From assembly GCA_947626285.1 (NCBI GenBank), contig CANQRR010000032.1, positions 1 to 39,467 of the forward strand: a stretch of DNA of 39,467 bases. The letters are read 5' to 3'. Positions 295 to 5,862 of the stretch are shown piece by piece. The notes beneath the pieces are model-generated. The model saw only the letters and a list, made by a program, of their open reading frames with translations, was not told where the DNA came from and made no database searches. The DNA comes from an uncultured Lachnospiraceae bacterium (GTDB lineage Bacteria; Bacillota; Clostridia; Lachnospirales; Lachnospiraceae). Made by a program: the position numbers and the translations under genes. The stretch's first letter is position 1, and every line of letters begins with the position of its first letter.

Positions 295-1647
295 ATGGAT
301 AAGAACAGATTTGCCACAACTCCGCCGATGGGCTGGAACAGCTATAACTACTACGACACGACCGTGACGGAAGACGAGGTCCGGGCAAACGCCGAATACA
401 TGGCGAAAAATCTCAGACAATACGGCTACGAATATGTCATCATCGACATTGAGTGGTACTCGAACGCCGCCGGGACAAGACGCGATACATATCAGTATAT
501 TCCCTTTGAGGACTTTGAGATCGACGAATATTCGCGGCTTCAGCCGTCGGTCAGGCGCTTCCCGAGCTCCGCCGGCGGCAAAGGGTTCGGACCGCTCGCG
601 TCCTACATCCACAGCCTGGGGCTCAAGTTCGGCATCCATATCATGCGCGGGATTCCGCGAATTGCCGCGCACCGGCACCTGAAAGTCCTCGGGACAGATG
701 TGAACGCAGGCGACATTGCGGATCCTTCCTCGATCTGCGGCTGGAACCCGGATATGTACGGCGTCCGGCATACGGAAGCCGGGCAGGCCTACTACGATTC
801 GATCATTCAGATGTACGCCGACTGGGGCATGGATTTCATAAAGTGCGACGACATCTGCGACAGCTGGATGTACCCGGTCGAGCGCTTTTCCGGCTGGGAG
901 GAGACGCGGATGCTCCGCAGAGCGATCGACAAGTGCGGGCGCGCGATCGTACTGAGCCTCTCGCCGGGGCCTGCGCATGTGGAGAACGCCTGTCATTACA
1001 CGCAAAACGCAAACATGTGGCGGATCACGGACGATTTCTGGGACAAGTGGGAGCTTCTGAAGAATATGTTCTGGCGCTGTGAACAGTGGCAGGATCACAC
1101 CCGCGAAGGCTGCTGGCCGGACTGCGATATGCTGCCGATTGGAAAACTCGGCAAGGGGCACGGCCATGAGTGGTATTCAAACTTTACCGACGACGAGCTT
1201 CGGACCATGATGACGCTTTGGTGCATCTGCCGCTCACCGCTGATGATCGGCACCGACCTGCCGCAGCTCGATGAAAAGAATTTTAAGCTGCTGACCAACC
1301 CCGCTATCCTGGAAATGCTAAAGGACGGGAAAGGCGTGCAGCTGAAGCGTTCCGACTGTGAGGCGGCGTGGATATCTGAAGGCGCAAACTGCGTGCGGAT
1401 CGCACTGTTTAATCTCTCGGACGATGCGGCAGAACTCTCTGCCGACCTGCCGGAAACGATCGCGGGCACAAAATTGCAGCGAAAAGATCCTGAGACAAAA
1501 AAATCCGCCAGTCATCCGGATCCGGCCCCGGGGCAGGGCCGCGAACTCTGGGGCGGGAGCGCCTGCCGCATCGACGGGAACCGGATTTCCGCAGACGTCC
1601 CCGCGCACGGCGTAAGAATCTACCGCTTCGACCGTCTCCGATCCTGA
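295..1647 (+). CDS. GH27 family alpha-galactosidase-like glycoside hydrolase
   Basis: Predicted retaining glycosidase of clan GH-D, acting on terminal alpha-galactosides or related sugars. The N-terminus carries the family signature PPMGWNSYN (residues 10-18). The nucleophile is expected at Asp185 in FIKCDD (the K-x-D motif), and the acid/base at Asp247 in WRITDD (R-x-[ST]-x-D). The 450-residue length fits a (beta/alpha)8 barrel plus a C-terminal beta domain. No signal peptide is visible, so it is probably cytoplasmic and acts on imported oligosaccharides. GGAGG about 8 bp upstream supports this ATG. It stands alone on the plus strand with its own promoter and palindrome, and no sugar transporter adjoins it. 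Exact specificity (alpha-galactosidase, alpha-N-acetylgalactosaminidase or beta-L-arabinopyranosidase) cannot be settled from sequence. Confidence 0.9.
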   Translation: MDKNRFATTPPMGWNSYNYYDTTVTEDEVRANAEYMAKNLRQYGYEYVIIDIEWYSNAAGTRRDTYQYIPFEDFEIDEYSRLQPSVRRFPSSAGGKGFGPLASYIHSLGLKFGIHIMRGIPRIAAHRHLKVLGTDVNAGDIADPSSICGWNPDMYGVRHTEAGQAYYDSIIQMYADWGMDFIKCDDICDSWMYPVERFSGWEETRMLRRAIDKCGRAIVLSLSPGPAHVENACHYTQNANMWRITDDFWDKWELLKNMFWRCEQWQDHTREGCWPDCDMLPIGKLGKGHGHEWYSNFTDDELRTMMTLWCICRSPLMIGTDLPQLDEKNFKLLTNPAILEMLKDGKGVQLKRSDCEAAWISEGANCVRIALFNLSDDAAELSADLPETIAGTKLQRKDPETKKSASHPDPAPGQGRELWGGSACRIDGNRISADVPAHGVRIYRFDRLRS

Positions 1648-1668
1648 TCTGCATATGGTAAATCTGCG

Positions 1669-1699
1669 TAAGGCCGACCCTGCTCTCACGTCGGCCTTA
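1669..1699 (+). terminator. Stem-loop after the GH27 gene
   Basis: TAAGGCCGAC (1669-1678) pairs perfectly with GTCGGCCTTA (1690-1699) around an 11-base loop, 21 bp after the GH27 stop. There is no good U-tract, so it may terminate weakly or only stabilise the 3' end. Confidence 0.45.
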
Positions 1700-1768
1700 G
1701 CCGGATCGTTTGGACAAAAGTACGCACGTTTCCACATGCCTTGAGGCAATGGCATTGATGTCATCGGT
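1697..1768 (-). pseudogene. Short relic frame ending HVETCVLLSKRSG
   Basis: A 23-codon minus-strand frame preceded in frame by a TGA ends in ASRHVETCVLLSKRSG and a stop. The 31-bp core 1708-1738 aligns without gaps, at 23 of 31 positions, to the segment of the nearby rlmD gene encoding HVETVCLLSK (4323-4353). The outer parts are nearly identical and six consecutive central positions (14-19 of the 31) differ. There is no start or ribosome-binding site, so it is not a functional gene. It looks like a left-over 3' end of an RlmD-like gene or an attachment half-site. Confidence 0.45.
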
Positions 1769-1939
1769 TCAGCCGAAAAAATCGTGAAGCAAAGCTGTCT
1801 GACCGAAAAAGTCGTGATTAGTCTTCTTTTGTTAATACTTTTTTCTGCCAACTTCGTTTTCCGCATTCTACCGCTGGTTGAGTCCGGTAAAATGTGTTCC
1901 CCACCGCCTCTGATGGCCGTGTAGGAGCCCTGGTCTGTC

Positions 1940-2446
1940 TTATAAGAACAACTCCATTATATCGAAATCGATCAGTTCCTCACCAATCTTGAAATAACCT
2001 TTGAATGTTCCGATCTTTTCAAATCCGAACTTCCGGTAAAGATGTATTGCAGCCTCGTTATCGCTTCTGACTTCGAGAGAAACGATCTCAGACCTTGCAA
2101 CATTTTTAGCAAAATCAAGGATGTGTTCCATAAGCATGGTACCGACTCCTTGATTCCAGTATGATTTTCTGACGGAAATTCCGAATTCACCTCTATGTGC
2201 CATTCTCTTTTTAGGAAAGGAAGTGTAATTGCCTGTTCCCACAATTTCTTTTCCGTCTCTGGCCACTAAAAAAATATCAGTATCTGAATTTTCGACAGAT
2301 GCTATGTAGGAAGCCTCATTTTCGACTGAAACAGGAATACCACTTTCGCCGAAGCTCAAGTTATCAGTTTCAGAGCCGCATACCTTTGTTAGATTCAATA
2401 TTGCCTCCGCATCTTCGGCTTTCGCCTTTTCAATAATAATCGCCAT
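1940..2446 (-). CDS. GNAT family N-acetyltransferase
   Basis: A 168-residue single-domain acetyltransferase that would transfer an acetyl group from acetyl-CoA to an amine. The fold signature is clear: a beta4 strand around DIFLVARDGKEIVGTG, the acetyl-CoA loop in VRKSYWNQGVGTMLM (Q-x-x-G-x-G/A type), and the terminal LEVRSDNEAAIHLYRKFGF motif. GGAGG seven bases before the ATG sets the start. The base composition is clearly AT-richer than the GH27 and rlmD neighbours, in line with horizontal acquisition. It sits inside the degraded island between rlmD and GH27. Substrate unknown; small-molecule or antibiotic acetylation are both possible. Confidence 0.88.
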   Translation of the reverse strand: MAIIIEKAKAEDAEAILNLTKVCGSETDNLSFGESGIPVSVENEASYIASVENSDTDIFLVARDGKEIVGTGNYTSFPKKRMAHRGEFGISVRKSYWNQGVGTMLMEHILDFAKNVARSEIVSLEVRSDNEAAIHLYRKFGFEKIGTFKGYFKIGEELIDFDIMELFL

Positions 2447-2539
2447 TCACTTTCCTCCATGAAGTCCGCACTTTATACGCTCTCCGACGCTAACAGACCA
2501 ATGCCCGAAAAGCCCGCAAATACGCCACTTTTTCGGCGG

Positions 2540-2707
2540 TCAGTCTTTAACCCATGACATCAATATTACCGTCTCTACATGAGAATTAACGTCCAAACCA
2601 ATACTCATATCTTCCTCTATAATCGGCAGCTTGAATTTAATAGACTTCAACCACTGTCCGTTTGGCTGCCTGTCCTCAAATATCTGTATTTCAGAAATCA
2701 ATGCTTC
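2540..2707 (-). pseudogene. C-terminal relic of a recombinase-like protein ending HVETVILMS
   Basis: A 55-codon frame without its own start runs from EALISEIQIFEDRQ through LPIIEEDMSIGLDVN to HVETVILMSWVKD and a stop. From memory, sequences like this form the C-terminal end of large serine recombinases of clostridial mobile elements; I could not run the search. It begins exactly where the DUF1016 fragment loses its homology, so the two relics are fused at a deletion joint near 2706-2713. Its last codons match the rlmD 3' motif at DNA level: ACCGTCTCTACATG at 2568-2581 against ACCGTCTCCACATG at 4340-4353. Another frame runs over 2490-2543 with no start, ending in AEKVAYLRAF. Confidence 0.45.
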
Positions 2708-2991
2708 GATACCTGTCTACCTACAAACGCAAATCCTTGTCCTAATTCAAGCAAGAAATTTTGGATATGTTCTGTTAATTTCCGTTCAATCTCCACCTCG
2801 CGTCTTGGCATATCCGTACCCAAAAAATCAAATAAGTAAGGATCTTTGAATATCTGGTTTGCCATATCTGAATCTATCGGTGGTAATGCAGACGGAAAAT
2901 TATTGACCGCCTTACCGGTTCGCTCCATTAGTCTACTTTGAATCTGCAGTTCAAGTATCGTCTTACTCCAACCATTCTCAATGTTTTCTCT
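2698..2991 (-). pseudogene. Fragment of DUF1016 (YhcG-like) PDDEXK nuclease
   Basis: The minus-strand frame contains RENIENGWSKTILELQIQS followed by MERTGKAVNNFPSALPPIDS and FKDPYLFDFLGTD, then LGQGFAFVGRQV. These match, in order, the junction between the N-terminal domain and the start of the PDDEXK nuclease domain of DUF1016/YhcG proteins, which are often linked to restriction-modification loci and mobile elements. Both ends are lost: no start upstream, and the catalytic part after VGRQV is missing, replaced by the recombinase-like relic. It is therefore a non-functional internal fragment of a protein normally about 340 residues long. Confidence 0.7.
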
Positions 2992-3030
2992 TGATTTTGT
3001 TTTCCATTTCTTTCCTCCAAAGTTATATTC

Positions 3031-3056
3031 GGAGGGTTAGGAAACGTGAACCCTCC
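3031..3056. repeat. Inverted repeat downstream of methyltransferase gene
   Basis: GGAGGGTT (3031-3038) and AACCCTCC (3049-3056) form an 8-bp stem with a 10-base loop, about 130 bp beyond the methyltransferase stop. There is no convincing T-run, so its role is unclear. The rest of 2992-3186 shows no recognisable gene. Confidence 0.3.
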
Positions 3057-3186
3057 ATACACGATTCTTTTTCATATGACATCACCCTTTCTTTTTCGCA
3101 TTTGTATTCATACATCAAAAATGATGCTGATACCTGTTTGCTAAAGTCCATTGCCTCAATATTTCGCAGCGATCATCCAGTTTTCT

Positions 3187-3957
3187 CTATAATTTTCTTG
3201 CCTTGAATAAAACTGAAATAGGAAGCATTTTTGCTTTTTGGGCTTTGGCACTGATATCGCCTTCTGCTTGCATCGTTGCATCATCGGTCTGCTCAACCAT
3301 TTGCTCGATTACAAATCCCGCCTTTGCCAAAGCGTTGACATAGGTGGATATTTTTCGGTTGCACAGAAAGATTTCGCTGCCGTCTACCGGCATTCTGAAG
3401 TAGGACTCGTCAAAATAGCTTTTGTTCATTATCAAGGCTTCATTTTCAATTACATCTTTCCGTTCATCACAAGACCAGGCAATACAGTAATTGAGGGTAT
3501 GGTGCCAGCTGAAAATGAAAATACCGTCTTTTTTTAGGTATGAGGCTATTTTCTGGAAAGTACCATCAAGATCAGTCGTCCAACCAATCCCGTAAATTGA
3601 ATAAACGAAATCGAAATACTCTTTCGGAATACCCATCGCGACTTCCATTGGAGAGCAGATGAGCTTCGCATGGTAGCCGTTTTCGCTCAAATACCGCTCA
3701 GCATTTTCAAGTTGCTTATGAGAAAGATCTACGCCCCATAATTCACCGGCATTTCTGTCAGCAAGATACTTTAAGGAATGACCGCTGCCGCAGCATATTT
3801 CAAGTATTTTCTTTCCAGAAACATCGTCAAACAGGTGTAATTCATTCTCTGTTACAAAGTGTACTCCGTAAGTAGGGAGCGCTGTAGTTCCAAACCACAA
3901 ATCTGCGTAAGTATCCCAGTAATGCTTATTGGTTTTCAATATTTCGTCTCGATGCAT
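3187..3957 (-). CDS. Class I SAM-dependent methyltransferase
   Basis: Cytoplasmic methyltransferase of the Methyltransf_11/25 type. Motif I is ILEICCGSGHSLKYL, followed by an acidic beta2 end (LWGVDLS) and motif IV-like FDFVYSIYGIGW. The N-terminal segment HYWDTYADLWFGTTALP is typical of small clostridial SAM methyltransferases of unknown substrate. The frame stays open up to a GTG at 4041, which would immediately follow the rlmD stop. I prefer the ATG at 3957 (256 residues), because AAGGAG lies about 11 bases upstream and homologues as I remember them begin near here. It follows rlmD with an 84-bp gap and shares the low GC of the island, so it may be cargo rather than a native operon partner. 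Confidence 0.85.
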   Translation of the reverse strand: MHRDEILKTNKHYWDTYADLWFGTTALPTYGVHFVTENELHLFDDVSGKKILEICCGSGHSLKYLADRNAGELWGVDLSHKQLENAERYLSENGYHAKLICSPMEVAMGIPKEYFDFVYSIYGIGWTTDLDGTFQKIASYLKKDGIFIFSWHHTLNYCIAWSCDERKDVIENEALIMNKSYFDESYFRMPVDGSEIFLCNRKISTYVNALAKAGFVIEQMVEQTDDATMQAEGDISAKAQKAKMLPISVLFKARKL

Positions 3958-4041
3958 TTGTATCCCTGCTCCTTCGGTAATTCGTATTTCGCCATTAGTA
4001 AATGTATTGGTTCCGAGTTTGCTCATGTCACGCAACGACAC

Positions 4042-5862
4042 TTATATCATTTTGAAATGCTCCAGCGCCGCCCTAATCGCCGCCTCCTTCTCTGGCGGGC
4101 ATTGTGGCTGTCTGGCATTCTCTGACTTCGGTTTGTTGTAATTCTCCCGTTCGATAATGCCGCACTTACGCTTAACCTGTGCGATATACAAGTGGCTGAC
4201 CTTCATCCCGAATTTCTCCAGAACATACTCCTTGATTTCCTCATAGCTGGCTTTCTTCTCGGCGGCGGTCAAATCCATCTCGTCCAAGGTGAGTTCCACT
4301 TCGATATGCTGCTTGACATTGAGTTTGGACAATAGGCATACCGTCTCCACATGCTGGGTTTCGCAGAACATGTCTACGCAGGTCATCCTCTCCAGGCGGT
4401 ATCCGTTCTCCAGAAATGCCTTCAGATCCCGTGCCAAGCTCGTCGGCTTGCAGGAGATATAGACGAGACGGTCCACTCCGTAATCGATGATCTTCGAAAG
4501 CGCCTTCGGGTGGATGCCGTCACGCGGCGGATCCAGGATGATGAAGTCCGGGCGCTCGGGAATCTCATCGATGACTTTCAATACATCCCCTGCGATAAAT
4601 GTGCAGTTTGTCAGTCCGTTGCGCTTCGCGTTCTCCCGCGCGGCCTCGACCGCTTCCTCCACGATCTCCACTCCGATCACTTTGCGCGCGACGGGCGCGA
4701 TGAGCTGGGCGATCGTACCTGTCCCGCTGTACAGGTCGAACACGGTCATGTCCTTCGTGTCTCCGATGTAATCCCGCGCTGTGCCGTAGAGTACCTCCGC
4801 GCCTTTGGAATTGGTCTGAAAGAAGGAAAACGACGTGATCTTGAACGTCAGCCCAAGGATCGTCTCATAGAAATAGTCCCGACCGAAGATCAGGCGGCTC
4901 TCGTCGCTTCGCACGACGTCCGCGAGCGAATCGTTTGTCATGTGCAGGAATCCGATGATCTCTCCCTGCAGGGAGGAAACCGGCGAACCGCTCTCTGTGC
5001 ACCGGGAATTCTCTGCGGATCTGCCGCCATGTCCGGAGAGCGCCTGCAGCGCCGTTCCCAGCGGCGTGAAGTCGTGCCGTTCCTGGCTGGTCGTCACGAG
5101 ACAAACCAGAATCTCACCGGTCGTCTCCGCGCGGCGCACCAGCAGATGGCGCAGGTACCCCTGATGGCTCATCTTGTGGTAATAGGCGAAGCCCTGTGCG
5201 CGGCAGTATCCCAGAACCGTCTGCACGATGCGGTTGAAATCCTCATGCACGATCGCGCAGTCTGTCACCGGCAGGACGTCATAGGTGCTGCCCTTCTTGT
5301 GCAATCCAAGCACGAGCGGTCCGTCCTTGTATTCATCCCCGAACGAAAATTCCATCTTGTTGCGGTAGGCGAACTCCCGCGGACTGCCCTTGATGCCGTC
5401 ATACCGATAATCCGGCACAAGCGCCGCGCCCACAGTACCCGCTTCTCCATCCATGATTTCTGCTGTACTGATCTGTGCAGCCACATCAAGTGATCTCATC
5501 TGCGCAGCCTTCTCAGACAGTCTCACCTGTCCTGCCTCCACAAGCACTGGCTCGATCAGCGCTCTCACCTGCGCGCTCTTCATGGCAAGCTGCTCCTCGT
5601 AGGACATCGTCTGATACATGCAGCCGCCGCAGTCCGGGAAAAGGCTGCACGCCGGAGCGCGCACTTCAAGTGGCGACGGCGCAAGCACCTCGAGCAGCCG
5701 GCCCTCCGCCCGGTTTCCTCGCTTCTTGTTGATCACGAAACGAACCTTCTGTCCCGGGATGGCATTCTTGACGACGACCTTTCCCTCCTCCGTCCGGACG
5801 ATCCCCTTATTCGGAAAATCCACGCGTTCGATCACGCCTTCTGCTATCTGCCCTTTTTTCAT
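4042..5862 (-). CDS. rlmD: 23S rRNA (uracil-5-)-methyltransferase, RlmD family, with extra C-terminal tail
   Basis: Methylates a uridine in 23S rRNA (U1939 for RlmD) using SAM. Domains in order: an N-terminal TRAM RNA-binding domain (about 1-60); iron-sulfur cysteines C72-x5-C78-x2-C81, with a fourth near TDCAIVHEDF; a Rossmann methyltransferase domain with FDLYSGTGTIAQ, LDPPRDGIHPKAL and the catalytic-cysteine motif YISCKPTSLARDL. At 606 residues it is well above the usual 430-460. There is an insertion of roughly 40 residues around 95-145 and about 94 residues after HVETVCLLS (504-512). The tail contains AEKKASYEEIKEYVLEKFG and ends QPQCPPEKEAAIRAALEHF plus three residues. I remember similar tails on other clostridial proteins, including recombinases, so it may come from a mobile element. 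Start supported by AGGGGAC upstream. Confidence 0.9.
   Translation of the reverse strand: MKKGQIAEGVIERVDFPNKGIVRTEEGKVVVKNAIPGQKVRFVINKKRGNRAEGRLLEVLAPSPLEVRAPACSLFPDCGGCMYQTMSYEEQLAMKSAQVRALIEPVLVEAGQVRLSEKAAQMRSLDVAAQISTAEIMDGEAGTVGAALVPDYRYDGIKGSPREFAYRNKMEFSFGDEYKDGPLVLGLHKKGSTYDVLPVTDCAIVHEDFNRIVQTVLGYCRAQGFAYYHKMSHQGYLRHLLVRRAETTGEILVCLVTTSQERHDFTPLGTALQALSGHGGRSAENSRCTESGSPVSSLQGEIIGFLHMTNDSLADVVRSDESRLIFGRDYFYETILGLTFKITSFSFFQTNSKGAEVLYGTARDYIGDTKDMTVFDLYSGTGTIAQLIAPVARKVIGVEIVEEAVEAARENAKRNGLTNCTFIAGDVLKVIDEIPERPDFIILDPPRDGIHPKALSKIIDYGVDRLVYISCKPTSLARDLKAFLENGYRLERMTCVDMFCETQHVETVCLLSKLNVKQHIEVELTLDEMDLTAAEKKASYEEIKEYVLEKFGMKVSHLYIAQVKRKCGIIERENYNKPKSENARQPQCPPEKEAAIRAALEHFKMI
4323..4353 (-). 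other. Candidate attachment-site core in the rlmD 3' region
   Basis: This 31-bp stretch encodes HVETVCLLSK. It recurs with 23 of 31 identities at 1708-1738, and its last 14 bp recur with one mismatch at 2568-2581. Integration of conjugative elements and phages into the 3' part of rum/rlmD genes is established in streptococci. Use of this site here is inferred from the repeats and from the adjacent AT-rich island. Confidence 0.4.

Follow-up and report, generated by a model that had tools for sequence, protein, structure and literature searches.

A probable decayed stack of mobile elements at a glutamate codon of rlmD, with in-frame exchange of C-terminal ends between RlmD and large serine recombinases

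In staphylococcal cassette chromosome mec (SCCmec), large serine recombinases (LSRs) insert in the 3′ end of rlmH, an rRNA methyltransferase gene; the recombinase genes are not known to be cut by the attachment (att) site, and the methyltransferase is unrelated to RlmD, the protein considered here. The locus that we describe is a patch beside rlmD in a 39,467-nucleotide (nt) stretch of DNA from an uncultured Lachnospiraceae bacterium (GenBank assembly GCA_947626285.1, contig CANQRR010000032.1, positions 1-39,467), referred to below as the window. In streptococci, integrative and conjugative elements (ICEs) that insert in rumA by means of a single serine integrase are described as exchanging 3′ ends reciprocally between rumA and the integrase gene, with a change of reading frame, and the two resulting integrase forms are suggested to differ, possibly, in function (Ambroset 2016, PMC4701971). 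Smaller streptococcal integrative and mobilizable elements (IMEs) in rumA have serine integrases with the specificity of the rumA ICEs; tail exchange is not treated in the passages of that report dealing with them (PMC5357655). Insertion of CTn5 in rumA fuses RumA to an element open reading frame (ORF), giving a hybrid protein; a faint polymerase chain reaction band of intact rumA was seen in the CTn5 strain, and the same link was noted for an Enterococcus RumA homologue (Van Eijk et al. 2015, PMC4320837). In Myxococcus phage Mx8, attP lies inside the integrase gene, whose C-terminus changes on integration (cited in PMC4701971); unlike the LSRs discussed here, that enzyme is a tyrosine integrase.

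An earlier note on the window had drawn attention to an HVET-containing coding motif that recurs three times in an AT-rich patch. Its coordinates, strand and identities hold. Copy 1, on the reverse complement of 4323-4353, codes for HVETVCLLSK within rlmD. Copy 3 (1708-1738) is identical to it at 23/31 positions and codes for HVETCVLLSK, followed by RSG* to position 1697, and copy 2 (2568-2581) is identical at 13/14 positions, in an ORF that opens HVETVILMSWVKD* and ends at 2540. All three are on the minus strand. Neither strand of the window has a further site at a threshold of at least 23/31 or at least 13/14, and 200 dinucleotide shuffles of the window gave a mean of 0.0 and 0.015 matches, respectively, at these thresholds. 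G+C content is 0.38-0.44 in sliding windows across 2001-4250 and ~0.55-0.61 in the flanks; together with protein family matches, this bears out the AT-rich patch with a methyltransferase, an acetyltransferase and a truncated nuclease that the note had described.

We consider it very probable that at least one element, and probably two, inserted at a glutamate (Glu) codon of rlmD, exchanged tails with it and then decayed, leaving the patch (1697-4353) as a stack of remnants. As comparison of relatives shows, the LSR gene of such an element holds the corresponding site within its 3′ part, and everything downstream of the Glu codon is exchanged between rlmD and the LSR gene; RlmD gains the end cassette of the element and the LSR the end of the host gene, both in frame. 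Copy 1 would then be the junction of rlmD and the cassette, copy 2 the junction of the LSR gene and an RlmD-type end, left once a deletion had removed most of the element, and copy 3 the outer junction of a second unit with the acetyltransferase gene. The features that this proposal involves are as follows.

4345..5862, minus strand: rlmD core, residues 1-506, whose last codon is the Glu of HVE (TIGR00479)
4345..4347, minus strand: copy 1, Glu codon GAG, putative crossover codon and predicted rlmD/cassette junction
4042..4344, minus strand: predicted element-borne C-terminal domain cassette, the RlmD tail; 100 codons past the Glu codon plus stop
2711..2928 (ORF 2698-2928), minus strand: truncated YhcG_C nuclease gene, 5′ part retained (PF06250, profile positions 2-50 of 157)
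2576..2710, minus strand: 3′ remnant of an LSR gene (match to the LSR of locus L239)
2573..2575, minus strand: copy 2, Glu codon GAG, predicted junction of the LSR remnant and an RlmD-type end
2540..2572, minus strand: short RlmD-type C-terminal end TVILMSWVKD* (matches in L260 and L025)
1733..1939, minus strand: stretch preceding copy 3 (...DINAIASRHV), with an interrupted reading frame; similar near the junction to a site in genome G126
1730..1732, minus strand: copy 3, Glu codon GAA
1697..1729, minus strand: short end TCVLLSKRSG* past copy 3, common to contig C6 of the same genome

As expected of a 23S rRNA uracil-1939 methyltransferase, RlmD of the window (4042-5862, 606 residues) scores 278.1 bits against TIGR00479 (cut-off 183.55; E 1.2e-82), with the best stretch at residues 308-506. 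Glu506 is the Glu of HVE and aligns with the S. pneumoniae RlmCD chains 5xj1 and 5xj2, one of which reads HVQ at this position; RumA (1uwv) is also among the structure matches, and we take Glu506 to be the catalytic base, equivalent to RumA E424. Scanning GTDB species genomes with the whole RlmD yielded 201 relatives, and the best 80 were kept as loci; the peptide patterns of the scan included a tail pattern, and tailed genes are probably over-represented among the 80. Many of these proteins stop a few residues past HVETVxLLS. In 16/80 loci, leaving out L067, where the contig ends inside the domain, and broken copies in L011, L029 and L053, RlmD is fused to a domain homologous to the window tail. 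Judged by their first ten residues, there are 60 distinct RlmD ends among the 76/80 loci that were parsed (all except L031, L040, L058 and L059), with ordinary divergence accounting for part of the variety. When the window was compared by blastn with seven congeneric rlmD loci, homology broke off at 4340-4343 in five of them.

The last 98 residues of this RlmD, past HVETV, constitute a domain that also forms the C-terminus of LSRs. At the amino acid level, the window tail is 95% identical to those of L009, L015 and L179, the RlmD cores of which are only 66, 62 and 36% identical over the ~245 residues upstream of the site. Across 276 non-independent pairs from 24 tailed RlmD proteins, tail identity and core identity are uncorrelated (Spearman 0.07, p 0.22). 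We considered the tail as a host-native end of RlmD and rejected this, because the tail does not follow the RlmD core and also occurs on LSRs; by these comparisons, it belongs to the element and not to the host. RlmD presumably remains an active methyltransferase as its tails change, since the end of the element repeats the last residues of RlmD (TVxLLS).

The note had proposed an att site overlapping coding sequence, to be refuted by relatives free of any insertion and a tail unrelated to serine recombinases. Neither was the case, and insertions at this codon, as well as an empty site, are present in related genomes. In Hominisplanchenecus faecis (L077) the site is empty. The occupied counterpart is G342, the record of L222: up to the site it is 99.9% identical to L077 across 10 kb, and on the element side 8.5 kb match G343 at 99.8%, with an overlap of 17 bp between the L077 and G343 matches at the site. 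Sequence past the site of the L222 LSR is 99.87% identical to rlmD of L077 and its downstream sequence for 1,501 nt, beginning at the first base past the Glu codon. Similarly, the LSR of L204 and the Fusicatenibacter RlmD of L007 are 100% identical for 1,500 nt past the site, the full length compared, and post-site identity is 83% (1,265 nt) for L218/L081, 77% (1,472 nt) for L201/L039 and 95% (179 nt) for L213/L055. Aligned at the site, rlmD reads ...gtgcatgtgGAGactgtggtg, an occupied LSR ...acacatgtcGAGactgtggtg and a domain-bearing LSR ...acacatgtcGAGacggtagtt. In three genomes (G056, G062 and G048), RlmD with the domain and an LSR with an RlmD-type end mark the two ends of an element, on one contig and ~20-27 kb from each other; only the ends of these elements were read, and the target gene in G062 and G048 is an RlmD paralogue. 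No empty site for G056 was found in the 31 genomes searched. The site, the exchange and the in-frame fusion are demonstrated at the level of comparison between genomes. The swap of C-terminal tails that the note had suggested is borne out by L077 versus G342 and L007 versus L204, and by the LSR pairs described below; its partner, given there as element-borne genes, has to be corrected to the LSR gene itself. The LSRs of L204 and L218 lie on one record in the same direction, as stacked insertions would predict. A second target was also seen: in L189 and L191, the domain follows this codon in an RlmD paralogue of the DPPRKGC type, and an LSR of the same type lies ~20 kb off.

Serine recombinases with the motif in their 3′ end, which the note had recommended looking for, exist (for example, VETVxLLSK in L082 and L083). 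We searched viral contigs with the LSR body without its tail and obtained 36 loci. Past the VET codon, 27 of these have short ends, four an intact domain and one a cut domain, and four run off the DNA. LSR pairs that are 99-100% identical over their last 300 nt part ways 0-5 bases past the Glu codon GAG: immediately past it in L236/L237 (100%) and L216/L217 (99.0%), after 2 bases in L222/L239 (99.7%) and after 5 bases in L194/L218 (100%). In some LSR pairs of lower similarity, the Glu codon differs in its third base as well; we therefore take GA, its first two bases, as the probable two-base core, with AG as an alternative. Serine integrase domains (Resolvase, Recombinase and usually a zinc-ribbon) were found in both LSRs of L083, in L239 and in L089. 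The LSRs match the Ccr models far below cut-offs, and searches with L088 and L089 gave no more than 104-122 bits for the LSRs of L082, L083 and L085. G096 has an unbroken ORF for an LSR of the type found in the window, ending LMSRVKN*.

In the window itself, the recombinase-like tail of the earlier note is indeed the C-terminus of an LSR: ORF 2540-2701 has its best match outside its own genome in L239 (E 5.9e-21), and the remnant at 2576-2710 is 81-83% identical in nucleotide sequence to L222, L239 and L219. Past the GAG of copy 2, 73 nt of the window, counted from the first base, are 81% identical to what follows the LSR site in L260 (G096), and 56 nt are 80% identical to the end of RlmD in L025. 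Copy 2 is therefore read as the point where an LSR remnant meets an RlmD-type end. The YhcG piece has nucleotide matches from 2710/2711 to 2987 in G310 (80%) and G290 (77%). Most database matches to either piece, YhcG or LSR, end at or near 2710/2711, with one in G126 extending 10 bases over this point. Because L167, from the genome of L009, has both pieces ~1.4 kb apart, the two remnants were probably joined by a deletion at ~2710/2711.

The left half of copy 3 matches the G126 site at 37/43 nt, and 37 nt match at 86% within 1733-1939. The copy 3 site also shares 31/32 nt with contig C6 of its own genome, where the match lies in an orphan ORF resembling an RlmD end, ...DMFPHTSDIHSGVSGHVETCVLLSK* (L261, 1590-1805), with no rlmD in the 4 kb read around it. 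A pattern search found copy 3 in 2/250 genomes, its own included. Another reading of copy 3, that it was once the 3′ end of rlmD in this strain, was prompted by the congener G039, whose rlmD shares 21/24 nt with it (by eye). We judge this less likely than the end of another element, because the site recurs on C6 away from rlmD and resembles that of G126. Copy 3 is likely to be the end, or outer junction, of a second type of element carrying the acetyltransferase. The suggestion in the note that the other two copies are leftover ends thus stands for copy 2, as an LSR/RlmD-end junction, and is likely for copy 3. Stacking of insertions is well supported.

The remaining features of the patch and its flank are the following.

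3187..4041, minus strand: class I S-adenosylmethionine (SAM) methyltransferase gene, cargo, true start uncertain (Methyltransf_25, E 7.4e-16)
1940..2446, minus strand: GNAT acetyltransferase gene, presumed cargo of the outer unit (Acetyltransf_1, E 1e-20)
1662..1706, minus strand: inverted repeat at and past the copy 3 end, resembling a terminator by eye
295..1647, plus strand: alpha-galactosidase gene, flank (PF16499)

The SAM methyltransferase gene has 73% nucleotide matches in G088 and G229, and the GNAT gene has no nucleotide match among the loci compared. By eye, no conjugation or mobilisation module was recognised among the ORFs of the patch, and no family search was aimed at one. A 16-nt inverted repeat (1754-1769/2549-2564, 94% complementary) lies on both sides of the GNAT unit; its plus-strand arm resembles, by eye, an RlmD-type end of the form ...ALMSSVQPKKS*. 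The interval between rlmD and alpha-galactosidase looks like a hotspot, since G039 holds other genes in the same interval. There, at 637-2733 of L144 (G039:C8), an ATPase-like ORF is followed by a 248-residue ORF that is HNH-like by eye, a pair that we take to be reminiscent of a Septu-type defence pair.

Several observations weigh against a decayed stack of elements at this site. The exact empty site of the window's strain was not found, and G039 keeps the convergent order of rlmD and alpha-galactosidase with different genes between them. In two of the seven congeners homology passes the site, to 4292 in G039, where the rlmD gene has the start of a similar tail interrupted by a stop codon, and to 4278 in G041, which is the end of its contig. 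The window has no intact recombinase, and the genome has three Recombinase family matches, of which the two read to their ends (L122 and L124) lack the site; the tail occurs once in this genome, in RlmD. Movement at this locus is therefore read from relatives. In addition, no LSR reading frame was found ahead of copy 3, and the G342 record is without rlmD, such that one junction was observed for that element. HVET is a conserved RlmD motif, and the three copies might accordingly be ordinary RlmD-like coding repeats that arose by chance or gene conversion, without site-specific recombination. We regard this as exceedingly improbable. The shuffles reject a chance repeat, copy 2 is joined to LSR homology, and the sharp, in-register breaks and the empty site are at odds with chance and conversion alike. 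This explanation is refuted for copies 1 and 2 and merely unlikely for copy 3, and we retain the decayed stack as by far the best account of the patch.

The elements described here resemble the streptococcal rumA ICEs in their target gene, in an att site inside the serine integrase gene and in an integrase C-terminus that is changed after excision (PMC4701971). Insertion within the rumA/rlmD coding sequence is seen in relatives, and in the window homology breaks at 4340-4343; an att site in the integrase gene with reciprocal 3′ exchange is likewise seen in relatives, and in the window through remnants. The change of frame in both proteins was not found, with L089 alone noted as having a frame shift. 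Unlike in the streptococcal elements, the LSR and RlmD fusions of the elements compared for this are in frame, as are window copies 1 and 2; the hosts are others, and the window probably holds a stack that has decayed. The relevant passages of Ambroset 2016 (PMC4701971) mention neither the crossover codon nor the end domain that RlmD and LSRs share here. The ORF fused to RumA by CTn5 is not named as a recombinase end, and a reciprocal change of the recombinase is not discussed, in the corresponding passages on that element (PMC4320837).

The end cassette domain has only noise-level matches in Pfam and NCBIfam (E 0.075 and 0.08), and a PDB profile search with it gave no convincing match, the best (E 0.007) covering a small part of a ribosomal protein, which we disregarded; in PHROGs it matches a family without assigned function (6.7e-6). 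Used as a query against viral contigs, the tail returned four loci. In L082 and L083, two LSRs are encoded in tandem, and the second carries the tail as its C-terminus, with VETVCLLSK or VETVALLSK followed by the domain; L085 has the same arrangement with a broken frame. The first-type LSR of such pairs also bears a form of the domain at its end, one lacking the VETVxLLS site, in all four distinct loci, three of which were found through the tail search. A profile of the domain matched 83 ORFs, 38 fused to RlmD, 11 on second-type LSRs, 6 on first-type LSRs and 28 others; overlapping loci enter this count repeatedly, and the others include stand-alone and broken copies. For equal-length tails of 75-99% identity (32 pairs, 30 with usable dS), the ratio of nonsynonymous to synonymous substitution rates (dN/dS) is 0.03-0.15 in 29/30 pairs and 0.28, at a dS of 0.016, in the remaining one. 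Many of the dS values are near or above 1, hence rough, and all of these tails sit on RlmD, such that the test does not distinguish which protein is under selection. In the LSR of the Anaerococcus plasmid locus L089, a frame shift at the site leaves the LSR out of register with a domain of this kind, which is read in the RlmD frame. In two loci, L239 (4977 onward) and L215, a ParA gene lies 108 and 402 bases, respectively, past the LSR-domain ORF, and ParB- and Rep-like ORFs follow ParA, by eye, in the L239 record. We rejected the tail as a general head of parA operons, with ParA close downstream in only 2/83 domain matches (L215 and L239), a count in which many loci stop too early to judge.

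Our leading guess is that the cassette is an accessory DNA- or recombinase-binding domain of LSRs that is parked on RlmD during integration. The low dN/dS and the presence of the domain on first-type LSRs point to action on recombination; against this stand L089, where the domain is out of frame, and elements whose two ends both seem to be short. One form of such action would be a state switch, in which a cassette-fused LSR favours integration (attP × attB), the host-ended LSR suits or permits excision, and the RlmD-cassette fusion, formed only when the element is integrated, helps in trans. We think this rather unlikely, although it accords with the selection on the tails, with first-type LSRs that keep the domain without the swap site in all four distinct loci, and with the lower activity described for the Mx8 integrase after its C-terminus is swapped (PMC4701971). 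It is harder to reconcile with the RlmD of L017 and the LSR of L203, which lie ~10 kb apart on one contig and, taken as one element, are both short-ended, because such elements would lack the switch; nor can the domain of L089 be part of that LSR, since it is in another frame. The L089 case and the commonness of short-ended RlmD fit instead with a passenger, merely a coding end past TVxLLS that keeps RlmD intact and is selected, if at all, within RlmD. This is possible, if doubtful: an unselected extension of ~98 residues should not show a dN/dS near 0.05-0.1, and the domain on first-type LSRs without the swap site would be unexpected. A more far-reaching idea, which we put forward as quite a long shot, is that the reading frame of the LSR serves as the element's memory of its state. 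The free element would have an LSR with the domain and the integrated one a host-ended LSR with the domain on RlmD, the holder of the domain would set direction with no separate directionality factor, and rlmD would be a shared depot for end cassettes.

Neither the in-frame exchange nor the domain was found in the openly accessible literature searched, by titles and abstract openings. What is new here, compared with the systems described above, is the in-frame exchange, the shared conserved domain, the stacked insertion and the decayed example. The exchange helps to explain the diverse C-termini of RlmD, and the pieces of recombinase genes beside rlmD, in such bacteria, and the HVE codon could give genome annotators an exact landmark for the ends and scars of elements. 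Should the domain control recombination, it would offer a testable, self-encoded direction switch for LSRs, which are used as genome-writing tools.

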